Source: a virus. From it: DNA of 24,489 bases. The position numbers were made by a program, and so were the translations under genes. Where the stretch lies: positions 1-24,489 of the IMG/VR virus record IMGVR_UViG_3300009481_001952; one strand, written 5' to 3'. This document shows positions 8,097 through 23,583 of this stretch, in pieces (the stretch's first letter is position 1; each line of letters starts with the position of its first letter). A model generated the notes under the pieces. That model was not told the DNA's origin, did no database searches, and was given only the letters and a program-made list of their open reading frames with translations.

Positions 8097-8446
8097 GATG
8101 TAGATGATACCCAGTATCCTGCTGCACCAGCACCAGTTCCTACCCATCTAAACCATCCACCAGCGTTTTGGTCAAGAACTCCAATAGCATTATCAGAATT
8201 ATTTCCATCACGAATAGTGAGTCCTTCATCAGCATCTGCCTCATTTTGTATATATACTTCTGCAAAACCATTTGTTACACCAGTTTCTGAAGTATCTACA
8301 AAGATAAGGTCTAGGTTTCTAGCACTTCCATTTGGATCAACGATTTGCAATTTGTCGCTTGAAGCAGTAATTGTCAAATCAGCATTTCCTGACATAGTAG
8401 TTGTAGTAGTATTAGCACTTTCGTACTGTCTAGTTCCAACTGTCAT
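8084..8446 (-). CDS. Small beta-domain virion protein, 120 aa
   Basis: Thr-rich N-terminus (ANTTTTTMSGNADLTITASS), then DKLQIVDPNGSARNLDLIFVD, VYIQNEADADEGLTIRDG and a Gly/Trp-rich end (GGWFRWVGTGAGAAGYW). The pattern of short beta strands, with an N-E/x-A-D segment followed by a 'L-x-I-R-D' strand, resembles small beta-barrel domains found in phage heads and fibres. It begins with an ATGA overlap with the stop of the zinc-finger-like gene and has a strong GGAGG 6 bases upstream. It lies in the capsid block, three genes after the major capsid protein. A head decoration or fibre-attachment role is an inference. Confidence 0.7.
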   Translation of the reverse strand: MTVGTRQYESANTTTTTMSGNADLTITASSDKLQIVDPNGSARNLDLIFVDTSETGVTNGFAEVYIQNEADADEGLTIRDGNNSDNAIGVLDQNAGGWFRWVGTGAGAAGYWVSSTSGLN

Positions 8447-8892
8447 TTCTGACCTCCATGTTTCTTTTTATGTGCAATGTAATGTCCTACTGTTGTGTAT
8501 TCTTTTTTGCACATTCTATTATTTTTAAACTTGTATTCGCATTTATATAATTTAGAAGAAGGCTCGTTTGCTTCTAACTTAGGGAGCTGCTCGTTAACGC
8601 TTCTATCTTCTGCTTCAACCACAGGGGGAGCAAAGAGAGCATTTTTTTCGATTAACCTAATAACAGCATCATAAGATGCCCTTGCCTTAGTTTTATCCCA
8701 GACAAGTTGTCCATTTCGGCGAGATTGTAAGTAAAAGTAAGCCATATCCACTTGATCTGACCATTCAGGCAAAGGAAGAGTAGCCAAACTATGTTTATCT
8801 AAATACTCTTGCAATATGTCTTTATGATCGGATATCTTTATAGCATCCACTATATCTATCCACATTGACTTAGCTAACTCTTGAGTTACCAT
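8443..8892 (-). CDS. Hypothetical protein with C-terminal C2H2 zinc-finger-like motif, 149 aa
   Basis: Residues 1-88 look helical and acidic/aromatic (MWIDIVDAIKISDHKDILQ, WSDQVDMAYFYLQSRRNGQ, ASYDAVIRLIEKNALF). Residues 89-113 look like a linker. Residues 116-145 carry a zinc-finger-like motif with C118, C128, H141 and H145, i.e. C-x9-C-x12-H-x3-H. An aromatic lies 4 residues after the second Cys (Y132) and a hydrophobic 3 residues before the first His (Y138), as in the classical C2H2 finger half CKKEYTTVGHYIAHKKKH. The first Cys loop is longer than usual. The start overlaps the upstream 131-residue gene by 23 bases. The N-terminal part could fit a head-completion/connector protein, but I do not recognise it. 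Nucleic-acid or protein binding by the finger is inferred. Confidence 0.7.
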   Translation of the reverse strand: MVTQELAKSMWIDIVDAIKISDHKDILQEYLDKHSLATLPLPEWSDQVDMAYFYLQSRRNGQLVWDKTKARASYDAVIRLIEKNALFAPPVVEAEDRSVNEQLPKLEANEPSSKLYKCEYKFKNNRMCKKEYTTVGHYIAHKKKHGGQK

Positions 8893-9276: not shown

Positions 9277-10182
9277 TTATGAGAACGCTGCATCAGTAGC
9301 AGAGTAGAACTCAGCACCCCATGTATCTACGATTTCAAGTTCACCCCAGTTTCCTGTAGTTACTACTTCATTACCTCGTAGTGAGATATCTCTTTCTTCT
9401 TCTGCTGTGATTTCAGTTTCCATAGCTAGAGCTAGAGCTTCTCTTACAAAGATTGCTCCTTTTGAGTCGCCTGATCCATCTCTGGATATTACACCTGACT
9501 CATAAATAGGTACGTTAAATACCGATTCATTTCCTCTATAGTAATTTCTTAATACTTCTGCCGAATATCCGTCTGGAATTGGCTGAGCTGCCATACCTGT
9601 AGATCCACCACCTTGAATACCAGTTGATTCCTGAACAAACCTTCTGATTTGTTCTGGATGGAATACACCATGTGGTGTTCCTGGAGCTGGTCCAAATGCT
9701 GTGTTGTTATCTGTCTTTAGGTATGATATAGCACCAGCAACGTGCAAGAAAGTTCCTGCGTTACCAGCACCTGGAGCTGATACAGAGAATCCATCAAATA
9801 ATGTGATTAGATCACTCTCTAAAAGCCTACCAACAGCGTTACCTTGCACTTCTCCCACATGAGCCATGACACTTTCGTTGTTCTGTCTTACGAGCTTGTC
9901 GGATACAAAAGTAAGAATACCATGCTCTGTTGCAGTAAGGTTTCTTACAGTTACACCTAATTGCTCTGGAACAGAAATGTCTATACCTTCTGCGAGAGCA
10001 GATGCCGTATTTCGACCCCAAATAGGTACGTTAATTTGCTTAACACCTTTTGGAATATCATATCGGCTAACCAACTGGTTAGTTGGTCCTGCAGGTTCAA
10101 TGTTGGCAATAGCGTTTGCTATCATTATCGCACTCATATCTTCTAGACTGGAAGTATCGGATAATGTTAATCCTGTTGCCAT
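9277..10182 (-). CDS. Major capsid protein (HK97-fold type), 301 aa
   Basis: The length, the position directly after a scaffolding-like gene and the composition fit a phage major capsid protein. The N-terminal helix-like segment (SSLEDMSAIMIANAIANIEP) is followed by a typical strand region (LVSRYDIPKGVKQINVPIWG, SALAEGIDISVPEQLGVTV) and a long helix (FVSDKLVRQNNESVMAHVGEV, GRLLESDLITLF). Then come a Gly-rich loop, a P-domain-like segment (HPEQIRRFVQES...YSAEVLRNYYRG) and a C-terminal beta part (IFVREALALAMETEITAEEE, WGELEIVDTWGAEFY). AAGGA lies 8 bases before the ATG. The gene looks richer in G+C than the surrounding genes, as is common for highly expressed capsid genes. The fold assignment rests on pattern and context. 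Confidence 0.85.
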   Translation of the reverse strand: MATGLTLSDTSSLEDMSAIMIANAIANIEPAGPTNQLVSRYDIPKGVKQINVPIWGRNTASALAEGIDISVPEQLGVTVRNLTATEHGILTFVSDKLVRQNNESVMAHVGEVQGNAVGRLLESDLITLFDGFSVSAPGAGNAGTFLHVAGAISYLKTDNNTAFGPAPGTPHGVFHPEQIRRFVQESTGIQGGGSTGMAAQPIPDGYSAEVLRNYYRGNESVFNVPIYESGVISRDGSGDSKGAIFVREALALAMETEITAEEERDISLRGNEVVTTGNWGELEIVDTWGAEFYSATDAAFS

Positions 10183-10193
10183 AATTTATTTCC

Positions 10194-10967
10194 TTATATT
10201 TCTTTTTTAAGTTTGTTAAAAGTTTGTACGTTTATTTCACCTTTTGAAAAAGCTCTTGCTAAATCAACTTGTGAATTATACATTTTTTTAGCTGTAGAAG
10301 GAGCACCTTGAGTAGTAGGTGGAACATTAGATGTAGTATTAGGTTTATTAGTAGGTTTTGCAACCTGTAATTCACTAATATTTTTAGTAGCTAATGCTAC
10401 AGATTCATCATAGCCCATTTGAGCATTCCATCCTTTCCACACAGATTGATCTCTTGCAGTTACATTTGCACCTAAGTTTTTAGCAACATTACTTATCGTT
10501 GCTTCCAAAGATACAAGCTGTTCCTGTGATAAAGCACTATTAGGAGCATTATCAGCAACTTGTTTAAACTCTCTTAAAAGCTCTAGCCCTTCTTGCATTT
10601 CTGCTTGTTGTTCTTCAGCCTTTCTTTGAGCTCGTCTTTGCCTAAATACTTCTTTAGTATCTTCATCTAAAAGATCCTCAAAATCCTGCACTACAGTATT
10701 TATTTCATTTTCAGCTTTATCTTGAACTTCTTTTATTTTTTGCTGGGTTACGTTTTGGGCTCTACCTTGAGCTTGGTCAAACACAGCTTTCCGTTCAGTA
10801 GCCATTTCTTCAAATACTGATTTTGCTTCTTCCTTAGTTAAATAAGAAGAATCAGAACTTTGTACTGCTTCTTTAACAGCATCTTTAGCTTGGTTGCTAA
10901 TATCATCATTAGCCGTAGCTTCATTAGCTCCCTTGTTTTGTTCCGTAGAACTATCATTAGTAGTCAT
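10194..10967 (-). CDS. Scaffolding-like protein, 257 aa
   Basis: The protein is hydrophilic, helical and rich in Glu/Gln/Asn. A disordered N-terminus (TEQNKGANEATANDD) leads into a long charged coiled-coil region (residues ~35-135, e.g. EEAKSVFEEMATERKAVFD and FRQRRAQRKAEEQQAEMQEG). A Pro/Thr/Asn-rich linker follows, then a short basic C-terminal helix (DLARAFSKGEINVQTFNKLKKEI), the usual arrangement for capsid-binding scaffold tails. It directly precedes the major capsid gene with an 11-base gap. I chose ATG at 10967, which has GAGG 9 bases upstream. An in-frame GTG at 10982 would add five residues but lacks a ribosome site. No protease domain is seen. Scaffolding is inferred from layout and context. 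Confidence 0.75.
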   Translation of the reverse strand: MTTNDSSTEQNKGANEATANDDISNQAKDAVKEAVQSSDSSYLTKEEAKSVFEEMATERKAVFDQAQGRAQNVTQQKIKEVQDKAENEINTVVQDFEDLLDEDTKEVFRQRRAQRKAEEQQAEMQEGLELLREFKQVADNAPNSALSQEQLVSLEATISNVAKNLGANVTARDQSVWKGWNAQMGYDESVALATKNISELQVAKPTNKPNTTSNVPPTTQGAPSTAKKMYNSQVDLARAFSKGEINVQTFNKLKKEI

Positions 10968-11004
10968 TAGCCTTAGCCTCACTTACTTAATGTTTATTAT
11001 TTAC

Positions 11005-11034
11005 ATATTAAACCTAGACCTAATCTTCTGTAAA
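11005..11034 (-). promoter_or_regulatory. Candidate promoter for the scaffold/capsid block
   Basis: On the minus strand TTTACA (11034-11029, 5/6 to TTGACA) lies 18 bases before TAATAT (11010-11005, 4/6). It overlaps the end of the giant 1940-residue gene and lies about 38-65 bases upstream of the scaffold start, in a 52-base gap. A dedicated promoter ahead of capsid genes is biologically sensible, but the match is modest in AT-rich DNA. Confidence 0.3.
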
Positions 11035-14000
11035 GGTAGGTAGGTAGGTCTGCATAGGAAAAGGCATACCTAGTTCACCTTTCCTAAAGTCAAATCTATT
11101 ATAAGGATGTTTTAAGGTATTAGTTTTACCTATACCAAATCTATATAAGAAAGCATCTAATTCTGGATCAGTTTGCCTAAGAATTTCTCTAGCTTTTCTC
11201 ATATCTCTAAGTAATATCTTAATATAAGGAGATTGTTTTTCTATATCTGCTCTAATTTGAAAGCTAGTAGCATTCTTCCATTCTTTATATGCTTCTTTAG
11301 ATTGTTCTCCATGAAAATCTAATGTCTGCTCTTCTACTTGACGATAATAAGTATCTAAATATTTTTTTCTACCTGCTAGATACTCTAGGTATAAAGGATG
11401 AGAGCCTTCGCCTATCTTAGGTATATCAAACCTAGAATCTATGTATTCCATAACTTCAGGACCTACTCTTTCTTCAAATTCTGCTACTTCTGCATTTCTA
11501 GCATCCCAATCTACAAATTCACTATCTGAACTACCTAAGCCTAAATCTACTAATTCATTAGGTAATAAAGAATGAGTTGTGTCATCAGTAATTATTCTCA
11601 TATATTCGTCATAAAAGAAATCACCTACATTATCTATATCTTCAAGTTTTCTATATTCTAGGTTTTCATATATAGGTTGATATAATGAATTTTCTTTTAA
11701 TCTTCTAAATGCCATTCTTTTTTGGTGGTTAGCATCTTTTATTAAGTTAATATATTGTGGTAAATCTATTTGATTATCTTGTACTGCTATATCTAATGCA
11801 GTTAATTGTTCATCCCATGTACCTTTTATTAAATCTATTTCATCATACCAGTCAGGTAAAACTTCTTGAGCTAATGTTCCAAAAGGACTCTTTTTTCGTT
11901 CACTAAATATTCTTTCTTGTTCTGCTGCTATATCATCAGCAGTACCTGCATTTGCTATTTCAATTTCTTCTTTTTGTAATACAGATAAATCTTCCCAGTT
12001 AACACCATGAACACGTTGAGCTTCCTGATCTTGAAGTTCTTGTAATACTTCCCAATCAGTAGTTTCCCTAGCATTCATTCCTCCAAATTCAGAAATTGCT
12101 CCTAATGGATTAACGCTACCCTGTAAAAATCCTGTTTCAAACCAAAATGGAGCTAATTGTGATCCTATATGCTTACTTATATCTACAGGAGTTTCTAAAG
12201 GCTCTCCAATAAAATCATGTCCTTGTTGTAAATCCCATGCAAGACCTGATATAGGAGAAGTTCTTCCCCTTAACCAACTAACTATAGGATTTCTTAATAA
12301 ATTAGCTGTTGTTCCTCTAGGTTCTTCTGATTGTAATAATAATGGAGAATCAGCTTTATCTCCTCTAAATGCAGGATCACCTAATATATTACCAGTAAGC
12401 TTTAGTGCTGATAACCAAAAAGAACCTGGACCAACAAAATTATCTCCTACTTTTAATTTCATAAATTTACCACCATCTCCACCTTCAGATGTAGGTCTAG
12501 GATCTAAATATAATTGAGACCTTTCTGATTCTGGAACACCTCTAGCTGCTTCTTGTATATTCATTGCTGTAACTGTTCCTGCATATATAGTTGTTCCAGC
12601 ACTCAACATTTTTAAAAGAGTATCTCTAGCCATTTCTCCTTGAATACCATTTTTTCCACCTAATAAAACATCTGTTATTACAGACATACTAGCTCTAGTA
12701 TATCTAGGTGAAAAGAACATAAAGGCTCTTTCTAAAGCTATACTTTCTCTATTTGCACCTAATGCCCTAGAGTCAAATGCTCCAGTCATTTTATTAACTA
12801 AATCAGATAATTGTTGCATAGCTAATTCTTTATCTGTTCCTGCTACTGCAGCTTTTTTTAATGCTGTTTTTTCAAGTGCTTCAAATAATTCTATTCTTGC
12901 CATATCTCCAAAAGTATCAAAAGCATCATTGAACCTTTCAGCTGCTTTACCTATACCAAATCCTACCTCAAGACCTTCTTGTGCCCTTTCTTTAGCAGTA
13001 GCACCATATATTCCTGTTTTTGCTGTAGCTTCATCAAATCTTGAAAAGGTTTTAGGTATCCATTCTCCTTTTCTTAATGCAGCATAATAGTCTAACCCTT
13101 CTCCAGATACATTTGCCCCAGAATCTATCATTCGTTGTATAACATCACGTTTTTGAGCATAAAAAGATGCTATAGACTCCTTTCCTTGAAAGAATACTTT
13201 ATAGTGATTTCCAGTAGCTCTTGCCCATCTTGCAGGACTTGTAAAAAATAATGGTAAACCTTGTATTACAGGAGCACCTAAGTCAAATGCTGTTTTAAAT
13301 ACTCTTAATACATCTCCCATTTTCCCTAAACTTTCAAGTGCTTCAAATTTCTTTGCTCCAGTTCCCAAAAATGCTTCTACTCCCTTTTTAGTAGCTGGGT
13401 CAAAAAAGTAATTTTCAAGTTCTTTTGTATATATTCCATTTTTAATAGATATGTTTTCTAACTGCTCATGTCTTTTAAGGTCTGTGCCGAAGAATTTTTT
13501 AGCTTGTTCATTTTTACCAAGTTTTACATTAGGATCTACTAATCTACCTTTACCTTCTAAAGTTTCCTTATAATTTATAATTGATTTTTCTAATGCTTCA
13601 CTTTGATTATCTAAATTCTTAACTATTTGATCAAACTCTTTATTAATAGAATTAATACCTTCTGTTACATTATTTGCAAATGTAGGATCTTCTTGATATT
13701 CACGCAAAAGCCTTCTTAAAGGTTTAGGGTATTTATCCATAAGAGCATCAAATTCTACTTTATAAAAAGCACCATCTTTATTTCTTATATTTTTTAATAA
13801 TTTTCGAGATGTTTTAGAATCATTTTGTAATAACCCTAAAGTACGAATTAATTGATCATTACTATTTATAGTATTATTTGCATTATTAATAATTTTTTCT
13901 AAACTTTCTTCTAAATCACTTCTTAATGTTGCTCTTAATCCTGAATCTGTAGAAGTTTTAGTATAGCTTTCTTGATATCTTGCTAGGCGATCATAAAATT

Positions 14001-16842
14001 CTCTATTTGTAGTTCGATTAAAAACTCCTACTCCACCACGACTTTTTTTCAAACCATCTATTCTTCCAATAATTTCGTTTAATTTATTTTCTCCTACAGT
14101 AACCCTTTTTTTAATTAAATAATCTCTATCATATTTTTTAATTAATTTATGAAAACCATCATTTGCATTTGCTATTTGATTTTTAATAGTATTCAAATCT
14201 TCTAAAGCACCACCTGTTAATAAATTTTTATTAGCTAAATCTTCTAATTCTTTACCAAAAGAAGATAATAGACCGTCATAAGTAACCACTCCTTCTGTAG
14301 TTACTGTTCTATTTCCTATTAATTTTCTTAAATCTGTTATAGTTTCAGGAAATTTAAACTTACCTTCTATTTTGCCTGATTTAGGTGAAATCAAACTTTT
14401 ATATTTACTATCTTCAAATAAATGTATATTTGTATCTGTTTTCCTATAAAGGATTTCTTTAATTTTTTTACTGTAACCAGGATTTTGTTGAAGAAATTTA
14501 CCTTCAAAAGGAACTAAAACTGGTTCAAAAAAACTAAAATCTTGACTTCTTGTAAAACTTTTTACATCTTTTTTCCATGCTGAAAGTGAAGGTCGTTTAG
14601 CTATTTTTAAACTATTTCGTAAACTTTCTGCTATATCTAATTGTTCTCTATAATCTATATCTAAATTACTAGCCATTTTTCTGGCATTTTCTAAATTACG
14701 AGCTCTTTGTTTAATTGGACCATTTAAAGCTTCATCCATTTTATCTAAAGAAGGAAGAATCTCATTTAGTTGTGGGTCTGCAACAGTTTTTTGAATTAAT
14801 CTTTGTAAATCATCTGCATAAGGAGCACCTCTAATAACTGATTTAGGGGTTAATTTAGTTATATGTTTTTTAAAATTATCAACTGTATTTTTTAACCCTG
14901 CTCTTTTCATCCTAAGTTCAGCTATTTCTGATGAGGCGTTATAACTTTTTAACCCTATACCCTTTAATCTATTTGTAAGTTTGGTATCATTTATTCTTTG
15001 TAAAATTTCTCCACTTTTTATATCAAAAGATGCAACTGGGTTAAGATAACTAACCTTCATTTCAGCAGCATCATCTAATGTTTTTATAGACCAATCATCA
15101 TCTAATAAAGATTTAAAGTTTTTATCTATATCATTTAAGTCAGGAGTACGAAAAATTCTTTTCTTTTCTGCTCCAATTTTAGTAAAAGCTACCCTTCCTC
15201 TGTGCATTTGTCTATCTTGTATACTATCTACTACTCTACCTATATATCTTCTACCAGCTTTTAATGTATCTAATTCATAAGAAAGAGAACCTTTCTTTAG
15301 TATTGTTTTCAAACCTATATCTTCTGGTTTTAAAATTCCATTTTCAACTAAATGATAAGCGTGTTCTCCCCAAGCATTTATAATTTCTTTAAGGCTACCT
15401 TGTTGTTTTTTATTTGCTTTAAGCCAACTTGCAGCATTACCAGCATCATCAAAAGCATTTTCTAAAAATGTATGCCAATCTTTTAATTGTTCTCTTGCTT
15501 TAGTTGCATTTTTACCAAATTTTGTTTTTAAACTTCTAGGTTTTATAAAATCTCTAAATATATCACCTTCATCTATTCTTTTAGAATTAATACCTAATTC
15601 TGTAAATCTACTACTATATTGCCTAACAGCATGAGCAACCAAGCTTTTATTTTCAACTTCGCTTATTCCATGAAGAAGTAAAGCTCTACCAGATTTAGAT
15701 TGATTTTGGACAATAGAGGCATCAGCCCATCCCCAAATCCATCTTAAAGGAGCTAAAATCTTACTTTCAGTAGCCCCAACCCATTGTCCTGCTGCTTTTA
15801 AGTCTGATATAGAATTAGGATCATTCATTCTTCTTAATTTAGCAAAATCAGATTTTCCACTTTGTAAATATTTTTTTGATGTTTTAAATAAAGGAGCTCT
15901 ATAGGCTTCTTTAGCACCAGTCTTAAAGCTTTTAGCTACTTCATTATCTGAAAGAAATTGAGATATAGTTCTTTCGTCTAATCCTTCTTCTCCTTTTTCT
16001 AACCAATCAAAAAATTTATCTGTTAATTGTTTTTGTCTTTTTTGGTCTTGACCTTTAAATACAGTTTGTTTAACAGTATTTTTAGTTTGTTTTAACCAAT
16101 ATTGTCTTGGCATTGTAATAGTTTCTTCTCTAGTAATACCTATACCTTTAACAAATTTAGGATAAGGTGCTTTAGCTAATGCTTTTCTTCCTGCTTTAGC
16201 TGCTGTTTTTACTCCAACTTTTACTCCAGCACCAGCACCCCAAAATACAAAGTTGGTAGGATCTGATGCTAGTTCTATGCCAAATTTAAGTGGATCTACT
16301 TCCCATCCAAAAATACTACCCTTAGCATAATCTGTTTCTCTCCAAGCAGCCCTAGAAGATAACGTATTAGCTTCTTTTTGCGTTTTACCTGATTTTAAAT
16401 ATTCTCTTTCGTATCTTTTTTTCTTTCTAGCTAATTCTCTGCCAAATCTAGGGTTTACGGCTTTAGCAATTCCAGTTATAGGGTTTAATCCAGATGCTGA
16501 TGCTGATACAGTCCAATCATCCCATTTTTGCATTGCTTTCATAAACCAATTAGCATCCTTTTCTCTAGCTATAGGATTTGGATTATTAGCATTAGCTTGA
16601 GCTACAATAATGTCTGCTTGTGCACCAGTAGGTAAACTAGGAGTATCAAACTTATTAAAGTCCATAGGAGTAAACTGTGGTTTAGTCATTATTTGTTGTC
16701 TAACCCTATTAGCTTGATCTCTTAACATTTGATCTTCTAGCTTTTGCCTTTGCCTTCTAGTTAAGTAATAAGTAGACCTAGTAATAGCATTTGATCTATC
16801 ATCTCTACTATAAGGATTTTGATTATCAAAAGGTCCAGCCAT
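11020..16842 (-). CDS. Giant 1940-aa phage protein, probable internal/ejection protein
   Basis: It is very long, Lys/Asn/Glu-rich and largely helical. The N-terminus is polar (DRSNAITRSTYYLTRRQRQK). Residues about 193-215 hold a Gly-rich hydrophobic segment, SDPTNFVFWGAGAGVKVGVK. A long central part (about 300-1150) is lysine-rich with many heptad-like helices. Residues ~1374-1386 carry FMFFSPRYTRASMSV, followed by a second hydrophobic stretch (LLKMLSAGTTIYAGTVTAMN, ~1408-1430). Residues ~1515-1550 carry RNPIVSWLRGRTSPISGLAW and then D-x3-G-x2-F-x-G-E-P-L. This C-terminal signature recurs in very large phage virion proteins that I cannot assign to a named family. I see no lysozyme, transglycosylase, protease or polymerase active site. 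It follows the 1029-residue gene with a one-base gap and precedes the scaffold. A packaged DNA-ejection protein is the best inference; a displaced tape-measure-like protein is the alternative. Confidence 0.75.
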   Translation of the reverse strand: MAGPFDNQNPYSRDDRSNAITRSTYYLTRRQRQKLEDQMLRDQANRVRQQIMTKPQFTPMDFNKFDTPSLPTGAQADIIVAQANANNPNPIAREKDANWFMKAMQKWDDWTVSASASGLNPITGIAKAVNPRFGRELARKKKRYEREYLKSGKTQKEANTLSSRAAWRETDYAKGSIFGWEVDPLKFGIELASDPTNFVFWGAGAGVKVGVKTAAKAGRKALAKAPYPKFVKGIGITREETITMPRQYWLKQTKNTVKQTVFKGQDQKRQKQLTDKFFDWLEKGEEGLDERTISQFLSDNEVAKSFKTGAKEAYRAPLFKTSKKYLQSGKSDFAKLRRMNDPNSISDLKAAGQWVGATESKILAPLRWIWGWADASIVQNQSKSGRALLLHGISEVENKSLVAHAVRQYSSRFTELGINSKRIDEGDIFRDFIKPRSLKTKFGKNATKAREQLKDWHTFLENAFDDAGNAASWLKANKKQQGSLKEIINAWGEHAYHLVENGILKPEDIGLKTILKKGSLSYELDTLKAGRRYIGRVVDSIQDRQMHRGRVAFTKIGAEKKRIFRTPDLNDIDKNFKSLLDDDWSIKTLDDAAEMKVSYLNPVASFDIKSGEILQRINDTKLTNRLKGIGLKSYNASSEIAELRMKRAGLKNTVDNFKKHITKLTPKSVIRGAPYADDLQRLIQKTVADPQLNEILPSLDKMDEALNGPIKQRARNLENARKMASNLDIDYREQLDIAESLRNSLKIAKRPSLSAWKKDVKSFTRSQDFSFFEPVLVPFEGKFLQQNPGYSKKIKEILYRKTDTNIHLFEDSKYKSLISPKSGKIEGKFKFPETITDLRKLIGNRTVTTEGVVTYDGLLSSFGKELEDLANKNLLTGGALEDLNTIKNQIANANDGFHKLIKKYDRDYLIKKRVTVGENKLNEIIGRIDGLKKSRGGVGVFNRTTNREFYDRLARYQESYTKTSTDSGLRATLRSDLEESLEKIINNANNTINSNDQLIRTLGLLQNDSKTSRKLLKNIRNKDGAFYKVEFDALMDKYPKPLRRLLREYQEDPTFANNVTEGINSINKEFDQIVKNLDNQSEALEKSIINYKETLEGKGRLVDPNVKLGKNEQAKKFFGTDLKRHEQLENISIKNGIYTKELENYFFDPATKKGVEAFLGTGAKKFEALESLGKMGDVLRVFKTAFDLGAPVIQGLPLFFTSPARWARATGNHYKVFFQGKESIASFYAQKRDVIQRMIDSGANVSGEGLDYYAALRKGEWIPKTFSRFDEATAKTGIYGATAKERAQEGLEVGFGIGKAAERFNDAFDTFGDMARIELFEALEKTALKKAAVAGTDKELAMQQLSDLVNKMTGAFDSRALGANRESIALERAFMFFSPRYTRASMSVITDVLLGGKNGIQGEMARDTLLKMLSAGTTIYAGTVTAMNIQEAARGVPESERSQLYLDPRPTSEGGDGGKFMKLKVGDNFVGPGSFWLSALKLTGNILGDPAFRGDKADSPLLLQSEEPRGTTANLLRNPIVSWLRGRTSPISGLAWDLQQGHDFIGEPLETPVDISKHIGSQLAPFWFETGFLQGSVNPLGAISEFGGMNARETTDWEVLQELQDQEAQRVHGVNWEDLSVLQKEEIEIANAGTADDIAAEQERIFSERKKSPFGTLAQEVLPDWYDEIDLIKGTWDEQLTALDIAVQDNQIDLPQYINLIKDANHQKRMAFRRLKENSLYQPIYENLEYRKLEDIDNVGDFFYDEYMRIITDDTTHSLLPNELVDLGLGSSDSEFVDWDARNAEVAEFEERVGPEVMEYIDSRFDIPKIGEGSHPLYLEYLAGRKKYLDTYYRQVEEQTLDFHGEQSKEAYKEWKNATSFQIRADIEKQSPYIKILLRDMRKAREILRQTDPELDAFLYRFGIGKTNTLKHPYNRFDFRKGELGMPFPMQTYLPTFTED

Positions 16843-16843
16843 A

Positions 16844-19800
16844 TTAAGTAGCTACTCCTCCGCCTAAAGCTCCGAAAGGATTAGATATTCCAGCAGGAGT
16901 TACACCTTGTATTAAGTTAACTAAAGCAGAAGGAGTTACACCTAATGCTCCAAATGCACCTTGTAAGAAGTTTAAGAACTCATTAGACCTACCTTGTAAT
17001 GCTGCAGCACTAGGTATAGCTCCACCAAATGGAGTTTGACCTGTAGTTAGTGCTGATAAAGCACCTAATGCACTAGGGTTAGATAATAATGTTAATAATG
17101 CTGTTAATCCTTGAACTTGTTGCCCTTGTTGTTGTTCTGCTAATCTTTGTTCTGGAGTAAGACCTCCCCTAGCTACTGATTCCTGTAAAGATACATAATC
17201 TTGAGGAGTTAGCCCTGCTCTAGCAGCAGTACCTTGAGCTTGTTGCTGTGCTTGATATAATTGAATTTGTTGATCTGGGGTTAAACCACCTCTAGCAAGA
17301 GATTCTTGTAAAGCTATATATTGGTCTACGCCTAAACCTGCTCTAGGACCTGCAGCTTGTATTTGAGTTTGTTCTAACTGTTGTTGAGGAGTTAACCCAC
17401 CAGTAGTTTGTAATGTTAACTCAGCAAGTCTTTGCTCAGGAGTTAATCCACCTCTAGCTTGTTGTCCTTGAAGGTCTAAGTATTGCTGAGTAGATAAGCC
17501 AAAAGGATTAGCCTGTGTTTGTGCAACACCTAATCCTGCTTGTGCTTGTATTCGTGCCACTTCTTCTGCAGATAAACCTTGCGTTCTAGCTATATATTCT
17601 TGAGCTTGTCTTTGTAATTCTGCAATTTCTCTATCTGCTTGAGTTTGAGCACCAGCTACACCTGCCTGAACATCTGCTACATCTAGTTGTCCTGCTCTGG
17701 CTTGTTCTGCCATATATCTATCTGCAGATATTTGTTGTGCTGCTATTCTTTCTTGAACTTGTCCTTCAGTTAAAGCAACACCAGCTTGAATGTTAGCTAT
17801 TATTTCAGCATTAGTAGCCTGAATATTGGCTATTGTTTGTTCAGTTAATCCTGTAGCATCTGCTATAAGTTTATTGTATTCGCCTCTTATTCTTTCAACT
17901 TCTTGAGTACTTAATCCTGTTTTTTGAGCAGCTTCAATAGTAGAATTTGCAGCAATAGTAGCGACCTCAATATCACTTAATCCATTTTCAGTTGCTACTG
18001 ATATTTGAGCATTAGTAGACATTTCAGCTATTGCTTCTTCTGTTTCAGCAGTTAAAGTTGCTATAGATAAATTATTTGCAGTATTGTCTTTTGCTATTTG
18101 TATTTCAGCTTCAGTTTGAGTTGAAGCGATTGATTTTTGTGCTTCTGTTTGTATTCGTGCTACTTCTTCCTGATTTAACCCTGTTTGATACGCTACATTT
18201 TCTTGAGTGCGTTGTTGTATTCGTGCTACTTCAGCAGCACTATATCTTTGAGTAGATGCTACATCTGTAGCTGATTTAGAATTTATTTCTGCTACTTCTT
18301 TAGCAGTTAATCCTGTTTGTTTAGCTACTTCTATATGTGCATCTGCTTGTATTTGTGCTATATCTTCTTGATTTTGACCAGTAATTCTAGCTAATTGTTG
18401 CTGTTCTTCAGTGCTATATCTTAATAATTTTTCTTCTTGAGCCATCTTCATACCTTCAGTAATCCGATTCATACCAAATTCATACTGTTCTTGGTCAAAC
18501 CTACGTTCTAGTAACGCTTGTTGTTGTCGTTCAAGGTCTACTTTTGCTAATAATCCATATTCTTCAGTTCCTGCTCTTTCTATTTCTAAAGATAATCTTT
18601 CTTGCTGTAGAGCAATTTCTTCATCCATTCTTTCTCTAGCTAATTTAGTTTGTTCTTCAGCTAAATCTCTTTCCATTTCTTGTCGCATTTCTTGCAAACT
18701 TCTTTCATGTTCTTGAGTTAGTTGTAATCTTTCTTGCTCAAGGTCTGATGTAAGCTGTGCCATAGTTTGATCTCGTTCTGCAATAGCTTCTTGCTCTTGT
18801 GTCATTCTTTGAGATTGTATTCTTGCATCTTGAACATCTCGCATCATATCTATCATTTGTTGACTTTCTGGAGCTATTTCCCAAGACCTAGTCTCCATAT
18901 TGTAATAACTCTTAATTAAATCTCTAGGTATCATAGGAACAGTAGCATCTGTAGCTTGTGATTCTGCTAACATACCCATAAAATCAGCCATTCTGACTCT
19001 TTCATCTTCTGTAAAAGGACTAGCTCCTCCTTGACCATCACCTGCTGGACCATAACCTTGAGGGTATTGATCAGCTATATCTTGTTTAGCCATTTGTGAA
19101 ATATTTTGTTCACTTTGTAAAATAGCATCCATATCTGCTTGGCTTTCATTTAAAGCTTGAAGTGAAGCCTGTTTTTTTTCTAAAGACATATTAAAATTAT
19201 TAACAACCAAATTATGTATTTGGTTCATTAAGTTTGCATCATTATTATCTATAGCTTGTTGGAATGCTGTTGCTAAATTCATATTATTTATATACAAACC
19301 TGTAGCATTTAATTTAGCCATATTTGAGTTTCTGGCAGCTACATTTTTTCTCAAATTTACATCTTGTTCATTTAAATTTGGTGATCCAGAAGGTTCTATT
19401 CCAAGAATATCTAAATCAAGAATATCTGCTATTGCACTAGAAGAACCAATAACAGCAGTTGATTTTTGATTCTGTAATTGAATTTGTTCAGGAGTAGGAG
19501 TAGGTGGTGTAGTTGGAGCAGTTGGAGTAACAGGAAATGTTCCAGTTTCAGGATCAATATTTTCATATAGCCCAGTTTTAATATTCCATTCTTTACCTTG
19601 ATCTATTAAAGCTTGTCTTTGTTTATCCATATCTTGTTTTTCTTGTAACTGACTTACTGACATTACTTCTCCCCTTTTTCCAGTTGGAAGTCCTGTTGTA
19701 GGAAAAAGAGGACTACTTTGATCCATAAATTGAAAAGCAGAAAAACTTGGATCAAATGGTATATTTCTTGTAAGATCAGCCTGAGAAGCTACAGGGAAAT

Positions 19801-19933
19801 TAGGTTGTTGGTATGTAGGGGTATTAGCTAATCTCCTAGCTTGTTCTGTTTGCCTTGCTATCTCATCTTCGTTATAGGCTTGACCATAAATAGAAGAAAA
19901 AGGGTTACTCCAATCATTATATCTATTAACCAT
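16844..19933 (-). CDS. Repeat-rich coiled-coil virion protein, 1029 aa (ejection/internal candidate)
   Basis: Residues 1-160 are disordered and Pro/Gln/Thr-rich; 190-290 look helical. Residues ~375-500 are a charged coiled coil (EQERLQLTQEHERSLQEM). Residues 501-720 are 20 consecutive 11-residue repeats with V/I/L at position 3 and Ala at position 4, e.g. EEVARIQTEAQ. A 7-residue insert, three more 11-mers, another 7-residue insert and four more 11-mers reach residue 811. Residues 812-941 consist of seven Gly-Leu-starting units with a basic length of 17 (GLTPEQRLAE, GLTPQDYVSLQES). The C-terminus is Ala/Leu/Gly-rich and amphipathic (LTALLTLLSNPSALGALSAL). GGAGG lies 9 bases before the ATG, whose first base is the last base of the 67-residue gene's stop. 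Internal tube or membrane-active ejection roles are inferred; a structural shaft is the alternative. Confidence 0.75.
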   Translation of the reverse strand: MVNRYNDWSNPFSSIYGQAYNEDEIARQTEQARRLANTPTYQQPNFPVASQADLTRNIPFDPSFSAFQFMDQSSPLFPTTGLPTGKRGEVMSVSQLQEKQDMDKQRQALIDQGKEWNIKTGLYENIDPETGTFPVTPTAPTTPPTPTPEQIQLQNQKSTAVIGSSSAIADILDLDILGIEPSGSPNLNEQDVNLRKNVAARNSNMAKLNATGLYINNMNLATAFQQAIDNNDANLMNQIHNLVVNNFNMSLEKKQASLQALNESQADMDAILQSEQNISQMAKQDIADQYPQGYGPAGDGQGGASPFTEDERVRMADFMGMLAESQATDATVPMIPRDLIKSYYNMETRSWEIAPESQQMIDMMRDVQDARIQSQRMTQEQEAIAERDQTMAQLTSDLEQERLQLTQEHERSLQEMRQEMERDLAEEQTKLARERMDEEIALQQERLSLEIERAGTEEYGLLAKVDLERQQQALLERRFDQEQYEFGMNRITEGMKMAQEEKLLRYSTEEQQQLARITGQNQEDIAQIQADAHIEVAKQTGLTAKEVAEINSKSATDVASTQRYSAAEVARIQQRTQENVAYQTGLNQEEVARIQTEAQKSIASTQTEAEIQIAKDNTANNLSIATLTAETEEAIAEMSTNAQISVATENGLSDIEVATIAANSTIEAAQKTGLSTQEVERIRGEYNKLIADATGLTEQTIANIQATNAEIIANIQAGVALTEGQVQERIAAQQISADRYMAEQARAGQLDVADVQAGVAGAQTQADREIAELQRQAQEYIARTQGLSAEEVARIQAQAGLGVAQTQANPFGLSTQQYLDLQGQQARGGLTPEQRLAELTLQTTGGLTPQQQLEQTQIQAAGPRAGLGVDQYIALQESLARGGLTPDQQIQLYQAQQQAQGTAARAGLTPQDYVSLQESVARGGLTPEQRLAEQQQGQQVQGLTALLTLLSNPSALGALSALTTGQTPFGGAIPSAAALQGRSNEFLNFLQGAFGALGVTPSALVNLIQGVTPAGISNPFGALGGGVAT
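17111..17500 (-). repeat. 17-residue Gly-Leu repeat array (7 units)
   Basis: Residues 812-941 of the 1029-residue protein divide into seven units that each begin with Gly-Leu, with lengths 17, 17, 20, 17, 24, 17 and 18. Two sub-types are visible: GLTPEQRLAE-like, and GL-x-x-x-x-Y-x-x-L-Q-E-S-x-A-R-G. The near-identical pair GLGVDQYIALQESLARG and GLTPQDYVSLQESVARG points to recent duplication. Confidence 0.8.
17501..17773 (-). repeat. Interrupted continuation of the 11-residue repeat
   Basis: Residues 721-811 comprise LTEGQVQ (7), three 11-mers starting ERIAAQQISAD, GAQTQAD (7) and four 11-mers starting REIAELQRQAQ and including EEVARIQAQAG. Inserts of exactly seven residues keep helical phase if the repeat is a mixed 11/7 coiled coil. 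Confidence 0.7.
17774..18433 (-). repeat. Twenty tandem 11-residue (33-bp) repeats
   Basis: Residues 501-720 align as 20 consecutive 11-mers with no insertion or deletion (660 bases = 20 x 33). Position 3 is V, I or L in 19 of 20 units and position 4 is Ala in 18 of 20. Gly-Leu recurs at positions 8-9 in several units (TGL in IEVAKQTGLTA and ENVAYQTGLNQ), giving a partial 22-residue super-period. The repeats are diverged at DNA level, so they are old and conserved by selection on the protein pattern. Confidence 0.85.
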
Positions 19934-20136
19934 TAACTAATACCTCCAAAAGGATCACTAGGTTCTTCGTACCTACTATAAGGAAACCTTAACTTAGGCT
20001 TAGGCTGCTTAATCTCAACATTAGGTATCTCTAAGTCTTGATATCTTTTATCTACAGCTTTAAATGCTAGGGTAGCATAATCTAAGAAATTACTTAATCC
20101 CATGTTTAGTGCTGATTGCTTAGGTTGCTTAGCCAT
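19933..20136 (-). CDS. Small hypothetical protein, 67 aa
   Basis: Basic N-terminus (MAKQPKQSALNMG), a short helix-like stretch (LSNFLDYATLAFKAVDKRYQ) and a Pro/Lys-rich C-terminus (IKQPKPKLRFPYSRY). It overlaps the portal stop by 8 bases and has a strong AGGAGG-type site 5-8 bases before the ATG. Its own stop overlaps the start of the 1029-residue gene (TAATG). Tight coupling on both sides and the strong ribosome site argue that it is a real gene despite its size. Its function is unknown; a portal- or ejection-protein-associated accessory role is a guess from position. Confidence 0.7.
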   Translation of the reverse strand: MAKQPKQSALNMGLSNFLDYATLAFKAVDKRYQDLEIPNVEIKQPKPKLRFPYSRYEEPSDPFGGIS

Positions 20137-22045
20137 AAGCTCCTCCTCCTGGAGCTAAGTCAGCCCCTGTTGTAGTTCTTCTAGGTCCTGTTCTAGGTCC
20201 TGCCATTTGTCTACCTACTAAATTTTGTTCATCTATGCCTCCAGGCATTACTGGTCTAGTCTGATTACCTGTAGGAGCTCCTGCTCCTGCTTGGTTTCCA
20301 GGTCCAAAGTTACCAGTATTAGGTAATTGCATACCACCTTGAGTATTTAATATATTATTAGCTATTTGCTGAGCACTATCTTCTGTAGCCCCAGTAGCAG
20401 ATTGTATAGCTTGAGATAACTGTGGTAGTTTTTCTGCTGCTATTTGAGCAAATAACATTCTTACTTCAGGTATATTGAAGAAATCTTCAGCTATCCTATT
20501 ACCTATTACTTCTAGTGGATTACTTACTCCAGCACTTCTAAGAGCTGTTCCCCAATCCACAAAACCTGCTCTCCATGTATCTCTCCATAAGCTAAGTTTA
20601 CGTTCTTGTTCTTCAGGGCTTACGCTACTTAATCGTACTAAACTAACATAATGCCCACGAATATCGTTAGGTTTTAACTTAGCATCAAGGTCTCCTGTTT
20701 CAGTCTTTCCGAATACAGTAACCTCATCATTTATAACATTTTCTACAATCTTTAATAATATTTCATTAGATTCCTGCATACCACGTTCAGTAGCATCTAC
20801 TACAGAGCTAAAGTTAAGACTAGCTATACCTGCTAATACAGCAGTATGGTAGCCACTAGCAGCACCTACTGGTCTTTCTCCTCTAGTTACTGCAGGAACA
20901 GTATTAGCTTCTATAGCACCTTTTATTGTTTGCATAGCTATTAATATGCTTTGAGGTGCTTCTGCTATAGGATCTGGTACTACTTCTACGTTAGTTGGAA
21001 TATAATTTCTAGCTCCTGGTTCTTGAGAATACTCAGACATAACTTCTTCAGTTAACCCTCTAGGTCCTCTAAATGAAATGTTAGACCAAGCGTTTCTACC
21101 TACTATGTCTAGGTATTGTGAAGCTAACCTAGATTCTGCTCTTAACATACCAAAGTTACCATGACCTATACCTCTATATAGATGTTCAGGCTTCCTACCT
21201 ATAGTTTTTACTCCAGTTTGTGGGTAATACTTAACAAAAGGTATTCTTCCGTAAGTATGTTTTCTAGGTTTCATAGCCCATCTTTCATCTGCTATGTAAG
21301 CTACATGAGTAGATGTCCATACCTCTAAAAATTCTACAGTACCATTTGGTTTACCTTCCCATTCAGGAAAATGTGCAGACACCCAAGAAGCATCCATATC
21401 GCAAAACTTAATTATCCATCTAGGAGTTGTAGAAGCTATATCCCATACACATTCTTGAGGATTTATTACTTCAGCTACAATAGGAAAGGTAAATTTTCTT
21501 TTATTAATAATTTCTTGTATTTTTTCCTTATATACAGCTTCAGATTCATCTTCTTCTTGATCTGGAAAATCACTCCATAAGTGTCCTGCAAATTCATATT
21601 TAGCCCATGATACTCCGTATAATCCCTGATGTTTTACAATTTCTCTTTGAACAGGAGTAGTTTGTTGAATCATGTGATGAGCACCTTGTAAGAACTTTTC
21701 TATAAGTTCTGCTCTGGCTTGACCTCTAGGACCTGGTGGTGGAACTGATATATCAATAAATTTAGGACTAGCGTGTGAAACTAATGTTTCAATAATAGAA
21801 TGAAATGTTCCAAGTTTTACTTGGTTTCCACCTTCTGGAACAGAAAAGTCAAATTCACCAGTATAGAATTGATCTGCTTCTTCACAATTCTTAAAAAAAT
21901 TCCGAAAGGTAGACATAGCTCCTTCCTGAGACATTTGTGTCAATACCCATTGCAAGGATAAACCTGGTTCTTCTTCAGGTAGAGCAGAAAGTAAATCTGC
22001 AGTTTCTTGTGCAGAGCTTAACAATTCTGTGTTACTCATTGCCAT
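20129..22045 (-). CDS. Portal protein, 638 aa
   Basis: It lies directly after the large terminase and has the layout of phage portals. The N-terminal helical part (FRNFFKNCEEADQFYTGEFD) leads into a conserved-looking 'stem/wing' region (LGTFHSIIETLVSHASPKFI, VKHQGLYGVSWAKYEF). A beta wing follows (PIVAEVINPQECVWD, WIIKFCDMDASWV, VEFLEVWTSTHVAYI), then the long helical crown approach (YRGIGHGNFGMLRAESRLAS, AGIASLNFSSVVDATERGMQ). The C-terminal ~80 residues are Gln/Gly/Pro-rich and probably disordered. It forms the ring vertex through which DNA enters and leaves. GAGGAGG lies 7 bases before the ATG at 22045; a second in-frame ATG at 22039 is possible. The start overlaps the terminase end by 10 bases. 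Confidence 0.85.
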   Translation of the reverse strand: MAMSNTELLSSAQETADLLSALPEEEPGLSLQWVLTQMSQEGAMSTFRNFFKNCEEADQFYTGEFDFSVPEGGNQVKLGTFHSIIETLVSHASPKFIDISVPPPGPRGQARAELIEKFLQGAHHMIQQTTPVQREIVKHQGLYGVSWAKYEFAGHLWSDFPDQEEDESEAVYKEKIQEIINKRKFTFPIVAEVINPQECVWDIASTTPRWIIKFCDMDASWVSAHFPEWEGKPNGTVEFLEVWTSTHVAYIADERWAMKPRKHTYGRIPFVKYYPQTGVKTIGRKPEHLYRGIGHGNFGMLRAESRLASQYLDIVGRNAWSNISFRGPRGLTEEVMSEYSQEPGARNYIPTNVEVVPDPIAEAPQSILIAMQTIKGAIEANTVPAVTRGERPVGAASGYHTAVLAGIASLNFSSVVDATERGMQESNEILLKIVENVINDEVTVFGKTETGDLDAKLKPNDIRGHYVSLVRLSSVSPEEQERKLSLWRDTWRAGFVDWGTALRSAGVSNPLEVIGNRIAEDFFNIPEVRMLFAQIAAEKLPQLSQAIQSATGATEDSAQQIANNILNTQGGMQLPNTGNFGPGNQAGAGAPTGNQTRPVMPGGIDEQNLVGRQMAGPRTGPRRTTTGADLAPGGGAYG

Positions 22046-23583
22046 TTAATATCCTCCTCAAGAATTAATGGTACTCCATTAACTTGCAAATCAGGAAACT
22101 GTCTTTGAGCTTCTTCTATTTGCTTTTTTCTTCTTGCCCTTTTGATTCTTTGTATTCTTTTAGATGTATTAGATGATTTAGCACCTAAAGGTTCAAAGGT
22201 TTTAATACTAGGTATTATCTGTTTCATATTAGAGTCTACCATAGCAGGATCACAAGCCATTAACGCTAGACATTCTGCGTCTACCCAGTCATCATGCGTT
22301 GAGTCAGGGTGGCTAAAACTATAACCCATACCCATTTGCTTTACCTCTATCGCCTCCATCTGGTTTTTTAGTTTATCCCATGTAGAGGGAAATTGCACAG
22401 TACCATTTTGTAACGCTATAGCATAGTTTAAAAATAGTTGGTATTTAGATTGTTGAGTAAACTTAAATCCTACTACAGGCACATTCATAGATAGTAGTTC
22501 ATCATATATTACATCACCACCCATACCAGAACTATCTATCCTAACTTCTTGTACTTTCCAATTAGCACATTCTATAGCTATAGTATCTTTCTGTAACACC
22601 CAATCTGTTTTTAACATTTCTACAGCATATACAGATTCTCTAGTTACTCTATCCTTTATAACTAGCACAGTAGGGTCTACTTGTTTACCTAAGTCTAGTC
22701 CTGCTACATACTGTTTAGCTGCATTAGGTCTAGATGTTTCTACTCCTGTAGATGCTTCATGTATCTTGTTAAAGAATCCACCTGCACCTTCTGGTTGTTC
22801 AGCTAAGTAATGCCTTCTCCATATATCATCAGTAGTTAGATCTCTTTCTCTATTAATATCTTCTAACTGATCTGGACTTAGATAATGATTATCAAAAGTA
22901 GTAGCTTTTATTGCAATAGCAGAAGTATTAGGTTCTTGTTCAGCATTTCTAAACCTTCTTGAAAACCAATGGGATCTAGATATAGGGGGTATGCCTTCTA
23001 TACAAGCTCTACCTATTCTTCCAGGAGAGTTAAGAGTAGGTCGCACTTTATTCCATGCTGCTTCCTTTATGTCCTGTGCCTCTGCTATATGCAAAAAGTC
23101 TAACCCTACAGTCTGTAAGGACTCTGGGTTATCAGCAGACTTTAATTCCCATAAAATAGTTTTTCTATGCCTTCCTGGAAGCCACTTACCATTTGGTGCT
23201 CTAAGTTCTAATTCTACATATAGTTCATCTTCTTTCCACCCAGACCCTCGACCTCCAGCTCTACCTGCTACTCTTTTTTTAACAAGGTGTGGTGGTATAA
23301 ATGCTTTCATCTCATTCCATACTTGTCTCATTTGTGCTCTAGTAGGAGCAACAGTCCATATATGTATAGGAGGAACAAGAGTATTAGTCATATCAATATT
23401 ATTAACTACGAAAGGTTTTCTAGATGCTTCTTCGATAAGACTTAATGCTTCTTGTATTACAGCTCGACCCTTACCAGCTCGTCTACCAGCCCAGATATAT
23501 TTCACTCTGGCTTTTAATCCATGTAGACGTTTCTGCCATTCACAAGGGATGTAATTTACAACTACATTAGTTTTCAGAACCAT
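22036..23583 (-). CDS. terL: Terminase large subunit, 515 aa
   Basis: This is the packaging motor ATPase and headful or end-cutting nuclease. The ATPase part has a terminase-type Walker A, AGRRAGKG (residues 32-39), a conserved LKSADNPESLQ segment (147-157) and a Walker B region FLHIAEAQ (163-170) with the likely catalytic E168. The RNase H-like nuclease has GLDLG with D297, RIDSSG with D350, and the final HDDWVDAE cluster (H430, D431, D432, D435). The Walker A lacks the usual Ser/Thr after Lys (it reads GKG), and the Walker B aspartate is Ala. Such variants occur among terminases, and the intact nuclease triad argues for function. It starts inside the end of the upstream gene (17-base overlap) without a clear ribosome site. 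Confidence 0.93.
   Translation of the reverse strand: MVLKTNVVVNYIPCEWQKRLHGLKARVKYIWAGRRAGKGRAVIQEALSLIEEASRKPFVVNNIDMTNTLVPPIHIWTVAPTRAQMRQVWNEMKAFIPPHLVKKRVAGRAGGRGSGWKEDELYVELELRAPNGKWLPGRHRKTILWELKSADNPESLQTVGLDFLHIAEAQDIKEAAWNKVRPTLNSPGRIGRACIEGIPPISRSHWFSRRFRNAEQEPNTSAIAIKATTFDNHYLSPDQLEDINRERDLTTDDIWRRHYLAEQPEGAGGFFNKIHEASTGVETSRPNAAKQYVAGLDLGKQVDPTVLVIKDRVTRESVYAVEMLKTDWVLQKDTIAIECANWKVQEVRIDSSGMGGDVIYDELLSMNVPVVGFKFTQQSKYQLFLNYAIALQNGTVQFPSTWDKLKNQMEAIEVKQMGMGYSFSHPDSTHDDWVDAECLALMACDPAMVDSNMKQIIPSIKTFEPLGAKSSNTSKRIQRIKRARRKKQIEEAQRQFPDLQVNGVPLILEEDIKWQ

Follow-up and report, generated by a model that had tools for sequence, protein, structure and literature searches.

A 1029-aa protein encoded by the DNA analyzed here, a 24,489-bp linear IMG/VR virus contig (the window) with its large genes on the minus strand, carries a long tandem array of 11-residue repeats that, judged by sequence, resembles the hendecads of the microvirus DNA pilot proteins, phiX174 H and gokushovirus-type VP2. 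The resemblance is new here, and it indicates that a pilot-type hendecad coiled-coil segment is present in the protein.

The array comprises 20 11-mers without an indel, with V/I/L at position 3 in 19 of the 20 and Ala at position 4 in 18, exactly as counted in the first-pass annotation, which had described a perfectly phased 20-copy repeat. The opening two 11-mers (EKLLRYSTEEQ and QQLARITGQNQ) are weak, so the strict repeat count is nearer 18-19. Past residue 720, seven more hendecads follow, three after one insert and four after another, reaching residue 811; both inserts measure exactly seven residues, as had also been read from the translation (Table 1). The periodicity analysis that the annotation had proposed bears out the repeat. 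Identity within the array is 0.28 at a lag of 11 residues, 0.27 at 22, 0.19 at 33, and 0.22 at 44, against ∼0.06-0.12 at lags other than multiples of 11, and the Fourier power of its hydrophobicity falls on harmonics of 11 (11/4, 11/5, 11/2, 11/3, and 11) rather than on 7 or 3.5. The repeat is real and stronger than first stated. The 22-residue super-period proposed at the same time is weak and confined to Gly-Leu: these sites, in repeats 4, 8, 14, 16, and 18, all fall in even repeats (chance ∼0.03 for either parity), but identity at lag 22 is no higher than at lag 11. A recent tandem duplication was considered and rejected, with the repeats sharing at most 27 of 33 bases and identity at the 33-base lag standing at 0.48. 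The repeat DNA has diverged, which makes the duplication an old one.

Table 1. Features of the window, with the evidence for each assignment
Feature	Position	Strand	Basis
1029-aa repeat protein, putative internal/ejection protein	16844..19933	-	ORF; positional homologues in related viral contigs
Array of 20 x 11-residue hendecads, residues 501-720	17774..18433	-	translation; pilot-protein likeness
Continuation of array, residues 721-811 (3 + 4 hendecads, two 7-residue inserts)	17501..17773	-	
Insert 1, LTEGQVQ, residues 721-727	17753..17773	-	
Insert 2, GAQTQAD, residues 761-767	17633..17653	-	
Glu/Gln-rich predicted long helix ahead of array, residues 355-500	18434..18871	-	AlphaFold2, composition
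GGLTPEQ-type repeats at 17- to 24-residue spacing, residues 813-930	17144..17497	-	conserved in distant relatives
C-terminal Ala/Gly/Leu-rich uncharged domain, conserved, residues 931-1029	16847..17143	-	
Giant 1940-aa protein, directly downstream of repeat gene	11020..16842	-	no known family
67-aa ORF between portal-like and repeat genes (72-aa counterpart in L001)	19933..20136	-	
638-aa portal-like protein, highly conserved in group	20129..22045	-	position only
Terminase large subunit (TerL)	22036..23583	-	phrog_2 1.9e-24, PF17289 2.3e-7
262-aa scaffold-like protein	10194..10982	-	inferred from gene order/position, composition
301-aa major capsid protein, HK97-type	9277..10182	-	weak PF25209

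A search with TerL recovered 80 related viral contigs. Where the neighborhood is readable, the gene after the portal-like gene encodes a protein mostly of 500-1030 aa, and a giant of ∼1400-2280 aa follows. Among 47 positional counterparts of the repeat protein, the C-terminal part (the GGLTPEQ repeats and the last domain) is recognizably homologous in 24, and reversed-sequence controls yield none. The hendecad region is homologous in the eight closest relatives and weakly in six more, and the N-terminus in the eight closest only. The GGLTPEQ-type repeats of the distant relatives often show a spacing of 17 or 35. According to the first-pass annotation, homologues that had lost the 11-residue spacing would speak against its reading; the spacing is kept, since all indels across residues 496-812 in the close relatives, tallied without the most diverged (L007), are of 4, 11, or 15 residues, lengths that leave the helix in phase. 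The 11-residue indels sit in the continuation (718-779), the strict array has one 4-residue indel, at 561, and the N-terminal part, where the alignment is poor, has indels of every size. Purifying selection acts on the array: against L001, which is 65% identical to the window (dS near saturation), dN/dS is 0.26 for the array, 0.10 for the C-terminus (residues 813-1028), and 0.78 for the N-terminus. Searched for more widely, the repeat protein turned up at only seven loci, all on contigs already in the related set. A TerL search of bacterial and archaeal genomes for a host found no relative, and six related contigs checked for a tyrosine integrase gave no match.

A literature search on phage hendecads pointed to phiX174 H (PF04687; PDB 4JPN/4JPP), and the likeness to pilot proteins, including gokushovirus-type VP2 (phrog_5158 and others), was then tested. 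Searched raw against 50,697 phage records, the arrays of the window, L001, and L003 return 12, 12, and 3 matches (27 in total), and microvirus DNA pilot proteins account for all 25 of the annotated ones (10 + 12 + 3), at best E-values that are individually weak (0.03, 0.006, and 0.5, respectively). From the same records, a column-permuted array retrieves only Gordonia minor tail proteins, with no pilot proteins, and the reversed array retrieves nothing. The family hendecad profile gives phiX174 H 15.0 bits, a score reached by none of 2000 shuffles of H and by 5 of 2000 period-preserving column permutations. Among 177,635 PDB sequences, the two highest scorers with the hendecad-only profile are phiX174 H chains (4jpn and 4jpp, E 0.016 and 0.034), followed by HTH proteins, and the full-family profile places 4jpn (E 3e-4) as the top natural protein, behind one designed protein. 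Sub-threshold matches of the family include Microvir_H (E 0.064) and pilot PHROGs. Profile-profile comparison with eight pilot proteins aligns 131 columns, confined to the repeats, at 96.6% probability and E 5.8e-10, with both profiles shallow (Neff ∼2.3) and scores inflated by the repeats. The reversed control gives 0.4%, 0 of 30 column shuffles match the native result, and permuting the pilot repeat block 150 times with its period and composition preserved never equals the native score (66.8 versus a maximum of 39.4). Because these eight proteins were picked as search matches, their scores taken alone would be biased; evidence free of that bias comes from what the search matches turned out to be and from the PDB ranking. 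On these comparisons, the likeness of the array to pilot proteins is specific. We note that a minor structural protein of Lactobacillus phage CV244 (OQ627804.1 35644-35796) matches the microvirus pilot hendecads at E 7, the only tailed-phage record among the matches listed for them.

In phiX174 H, residues 151-183 are the hendecads QKELTKMQLDN, QKEIAEMQNET, and QKEIAGIQSAT, from which a kinked transition leads into heptads (PMC7354561). A 170 Å tube of ten copies translocates the DNA; most of its lining is N, Q, and R, and 18 of its 23 inward residues, as deduced from the wording of a table, are N/Q/R (PMC7354561). This paper is the only one that our literature search on hendecads and ejection proteins found. 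The fetched pilot proteins carry 11-residue repeats of their own (e.g., REVAGIQGLTS RDVAGINSQTS KDVAGIYGDTS RDVANIQGQTS), with a lag-11 identity of 0.32-0.42 in seven of eight gokushovirus-type genes (L092, L093, and L095-L100), and differ from one another in the repeat region by exactly 11 residues, that is, by single hendecads. The window family, phiX174 H, and the fetched pilots share one register: position 2 is E/D, position 3 V/I, position 4 A, position 6 I/M, and position 7 Q, with residues mostly small at position 8 and T/S/A (N in some) at position 10. The window protein and the pilots have in common tandem hendecads of the form [DE]-[VI]-A-x-[IM]-Q-[G/A/S/T] in identical register, an occasional G-L-[TS], indels of exactly 11, and the combination of hendecads with 7-residue units (in H, hendecads then heptads). 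They differ in hendecad number (∼20-27 versus 3 in H and ∼5-8 in the VP2s examined) and in length (1029 aa versus 365-436 aa in the fetched VP2s). The 1029-aa protein falls outside the pilot family: the conserved N-terminal region of the fetched VP2s (FNHDEAELSR...TAHQREVKDL...NPVLSA) is absent, and the genome, with TerL and an HK97-type capsid, is that of a tailed dsDNA virus rather than an ssDNA microvirus. Outside the hendecads, it shows no likeness to pilot proteins, and as a whole it has no match in PHROGs, pilot families included, in Pfam, or in the 50,697 phage records.

On an 11/3 helical wheel, V3 lies at 196°, position 7 at 229°, position 11 at 262°, and A4 at 295°; positions 7 and 11, flanked by V3 and A4, are Gln/Thr/Asn/Ala. 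A helical barrel with a polar lumen would be expected to show such a bracketed stripe, and the order is the same in the H hendecad, where I and A flank Q and Q. The lumen-like stripe of the array is only about half N/Q/R. As the best explanation of these data, we tentatively read the 1029-aa protein as one carried inside the virion and ejected, in a virus that is tailed and probably short-tailed, with pilot-type hendecad helices that would form a DNA conduit; its internal location, oligomerization, tube, and DNA transport are what we infer. The central 20-27 hendecads would form long α-helices with the face pattern of the microvirus pilots: a hydrophobic side of V/I3 and I6, an opposite side of Ala4, and the Gln/Asn/Thr/Ala stripe (positions 7 and 11) between. 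Several copies packed in the head would exit via the portal, by analogy to phiX174 H, and once released would assemble side by side into an α-helical tube whose amide-containing lumen would conduct the genome across the cell envelope. The first-pass annotation had ventured a hendecad helix and an internal tube or conduit, and that guess is now the best-supported one because the pattern is that of the microvirus pilot proteins, with phiX174 H a solved hendecad-then-heptad tube. AlphaFold2 monomers break the helix, at low confidence.

These breaks bear on the main structural rival, an array of HTH-like hairpins in which Gly-Leu-Ser/Thr every 22 residues would make tight turns and short antiparallel helices would build a solenoid or collapsible rod, acting as head spacer or scaffold. 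We consider it unlikely. The monomer models break the helices at Gly-Leu, approximately every 22 residues (near 519, 541, 585, 651, 673, and 695), at a mean pLDDT of 44.7 for the whole protein and 55.6 for residues 496-812 (locally 70-80), and a monomer prediction cannot settle an oligomer. Helices at 355-453 and 457-518, before and into the array, are predicted at pLDDT ∼43-57. G-L-[STN] suits a helix C-cap then N-cap, G-L-[ST] with E after it makes a good helix-turn signal, and Ala4/Gly8/Val14 match the HTH signature in the spacing of Ala, Gly-Leu-Ser, and Val; the G-L-[ST] and E at these sites account for the weak HTH matches. Pfam HTH families score equal to or better than the pilot proteins over ∼20-30 residues, and designed helical repeats appear among the PDB matches. 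However, none of the HTH families attains its Pfam gathering score among the matches listed, the pilot likeness extends over many more columns, and the motif here is embedded in an unbroken 11-residue repeat. Several consecutive repeats without Gly-Leu, where a helix is predicted at 588-650, and single 11-residue indels in the continuation also argue against hairpins. The pilot proteins have an identical G-L-[TS], so the Gly-Leu sites cannot tell a hinged array from a tube helix that runs unbroken. Structure searches with the AlphaFold2 models gave no clear match; phiX174 H was absent from their lists, which is uninformative at such model confidence.

Alternatively, the array could be a generic hendecad coiled coil whose likeness to pilots reflects shared physical constraint, with no functional parallel. 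Helical packing restricts the permitted residues, repeats inflate similarity, and descent is here indistinguishable from convergence. We nonetheless hold this to be quite unlikely, as no other natural hendecad family came up in the phage-collection and PDB searches and the period-preserving permutations fail. Common descent of the segment is a possibility; the bolder proposal that ssDNA microviruses (Monodnaviria) and a dsDNA tailed group (Duplodnaviria) hold it by descent, as a delivery tube exchanged and then lengthened in 11-residue steps, is in our view doubtful.

A scaffolding, tape-measure, or DNA-organizing rod, that is, a long coiled coil that would set head or tail geometry and not be ejected, is improbable. 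The protein's long Q/E-rich helices and length shifts in 11-residue steps would fit, and some weak structure-library matches are tape measure proteins, none of them significant. Yet a scaffold-like gene already stands ahead of the capsid gene, the sequence neighbors are pilot proteins and not tape measures, and the repeat gene is outside any tail module, lying between portal-like and scaffold/capsid genes and not, like the tape measure gene of a long-tailed phage, between tail tube and distal tail genes. A membrane-lying amphipathic helix, which the first-pass annotation had named as another fit to an 11-residue period and which would recall the 11-mers of apolipoproteins or synucleins, is highly improbable given the array's net charge of -16, lack of Trp, and narrow V3/I6/A4 hydrophobic face, and no apolipoprotein- or synuclein-type family is among the matches.

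The ejection-protein reading that we favor draws on gene position as well. The repeat gene is located in the head module, a position conserved in relatives. The annotation had called it portal-adjacent, which holds by position, but a small ORF intervenes and the presumed portal protein has no Pfam, PHROG, or PDB-profile match. Like the podovirus ejection proteins (T7 gp14/gp15/gp16, P22 gp7/gp16/gp20, and crAss cargo gp45/gp46), the protein is large, encoded in the virion module, and mostly helical by prediction, with a giant neighbor as likely partner and a proposed role in a trans-envelope DNA channel. It differs from them in its gene lying between portal-like and scaffold-like genes and in the hendecad array, and PHROG, Pfam, and PDB profile searches gave no sequence match to T7/P22/crAss-type ejection proteins. 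Short-tailed phages need an envelope channel built from proteins squeezed through the portal, and to our knowledge how such channels form is largely open. A tailed-virus segment resembling a solved hendecad DNA tube offers a concrete, testable channel model. It would also show a single helical-tube route for DNA in use by, or shared between, two unrelated virus realms, its length adjustable in steps of 11 residues.

The giant neighbor is likely a partner internal or ejection protein and would probably build the same complex. Pfam and PDB searches gave it no convincing match, and PHROGs gave just one, weak and of unknown function. Its counterparts in relatives span 1389-2282 aa, with a conserved block near residues 1304-1620, and a cpYpsA (SLOG) domain (E 1.5e-15) occurs in one homologue. 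The relative G006 (L089/L090; 38,170 bp) has an end overlap of ∼755 bp, and its genome looks complete. It shares the virion gene order and encodes two fiber-like proteins (one CBM_4_9-like) and a Prim-Pol/AAA replication protein (L089 11754-13898); its genes for the repeat and giant counterparts are the two largest. No tape-measure-like gene was recognized in its 38 kb, where the tail genes mostly have no assignment. This gene set suits a virus with a short tail and large internal proteins, a tail type that rests on gene position. The capsid homologue in L090 attains the PF25209 cut-off. Adjoining the capsid gene in the window, a 149-aa protein (8443-8892, minus strand) ends in a C2H2-like finger (CEYKFKNNRMCKKEYTTVGHYIAHKKKH), and its G006 counterpart (L090 16099-16572) has a weak zf-C2H2 match.
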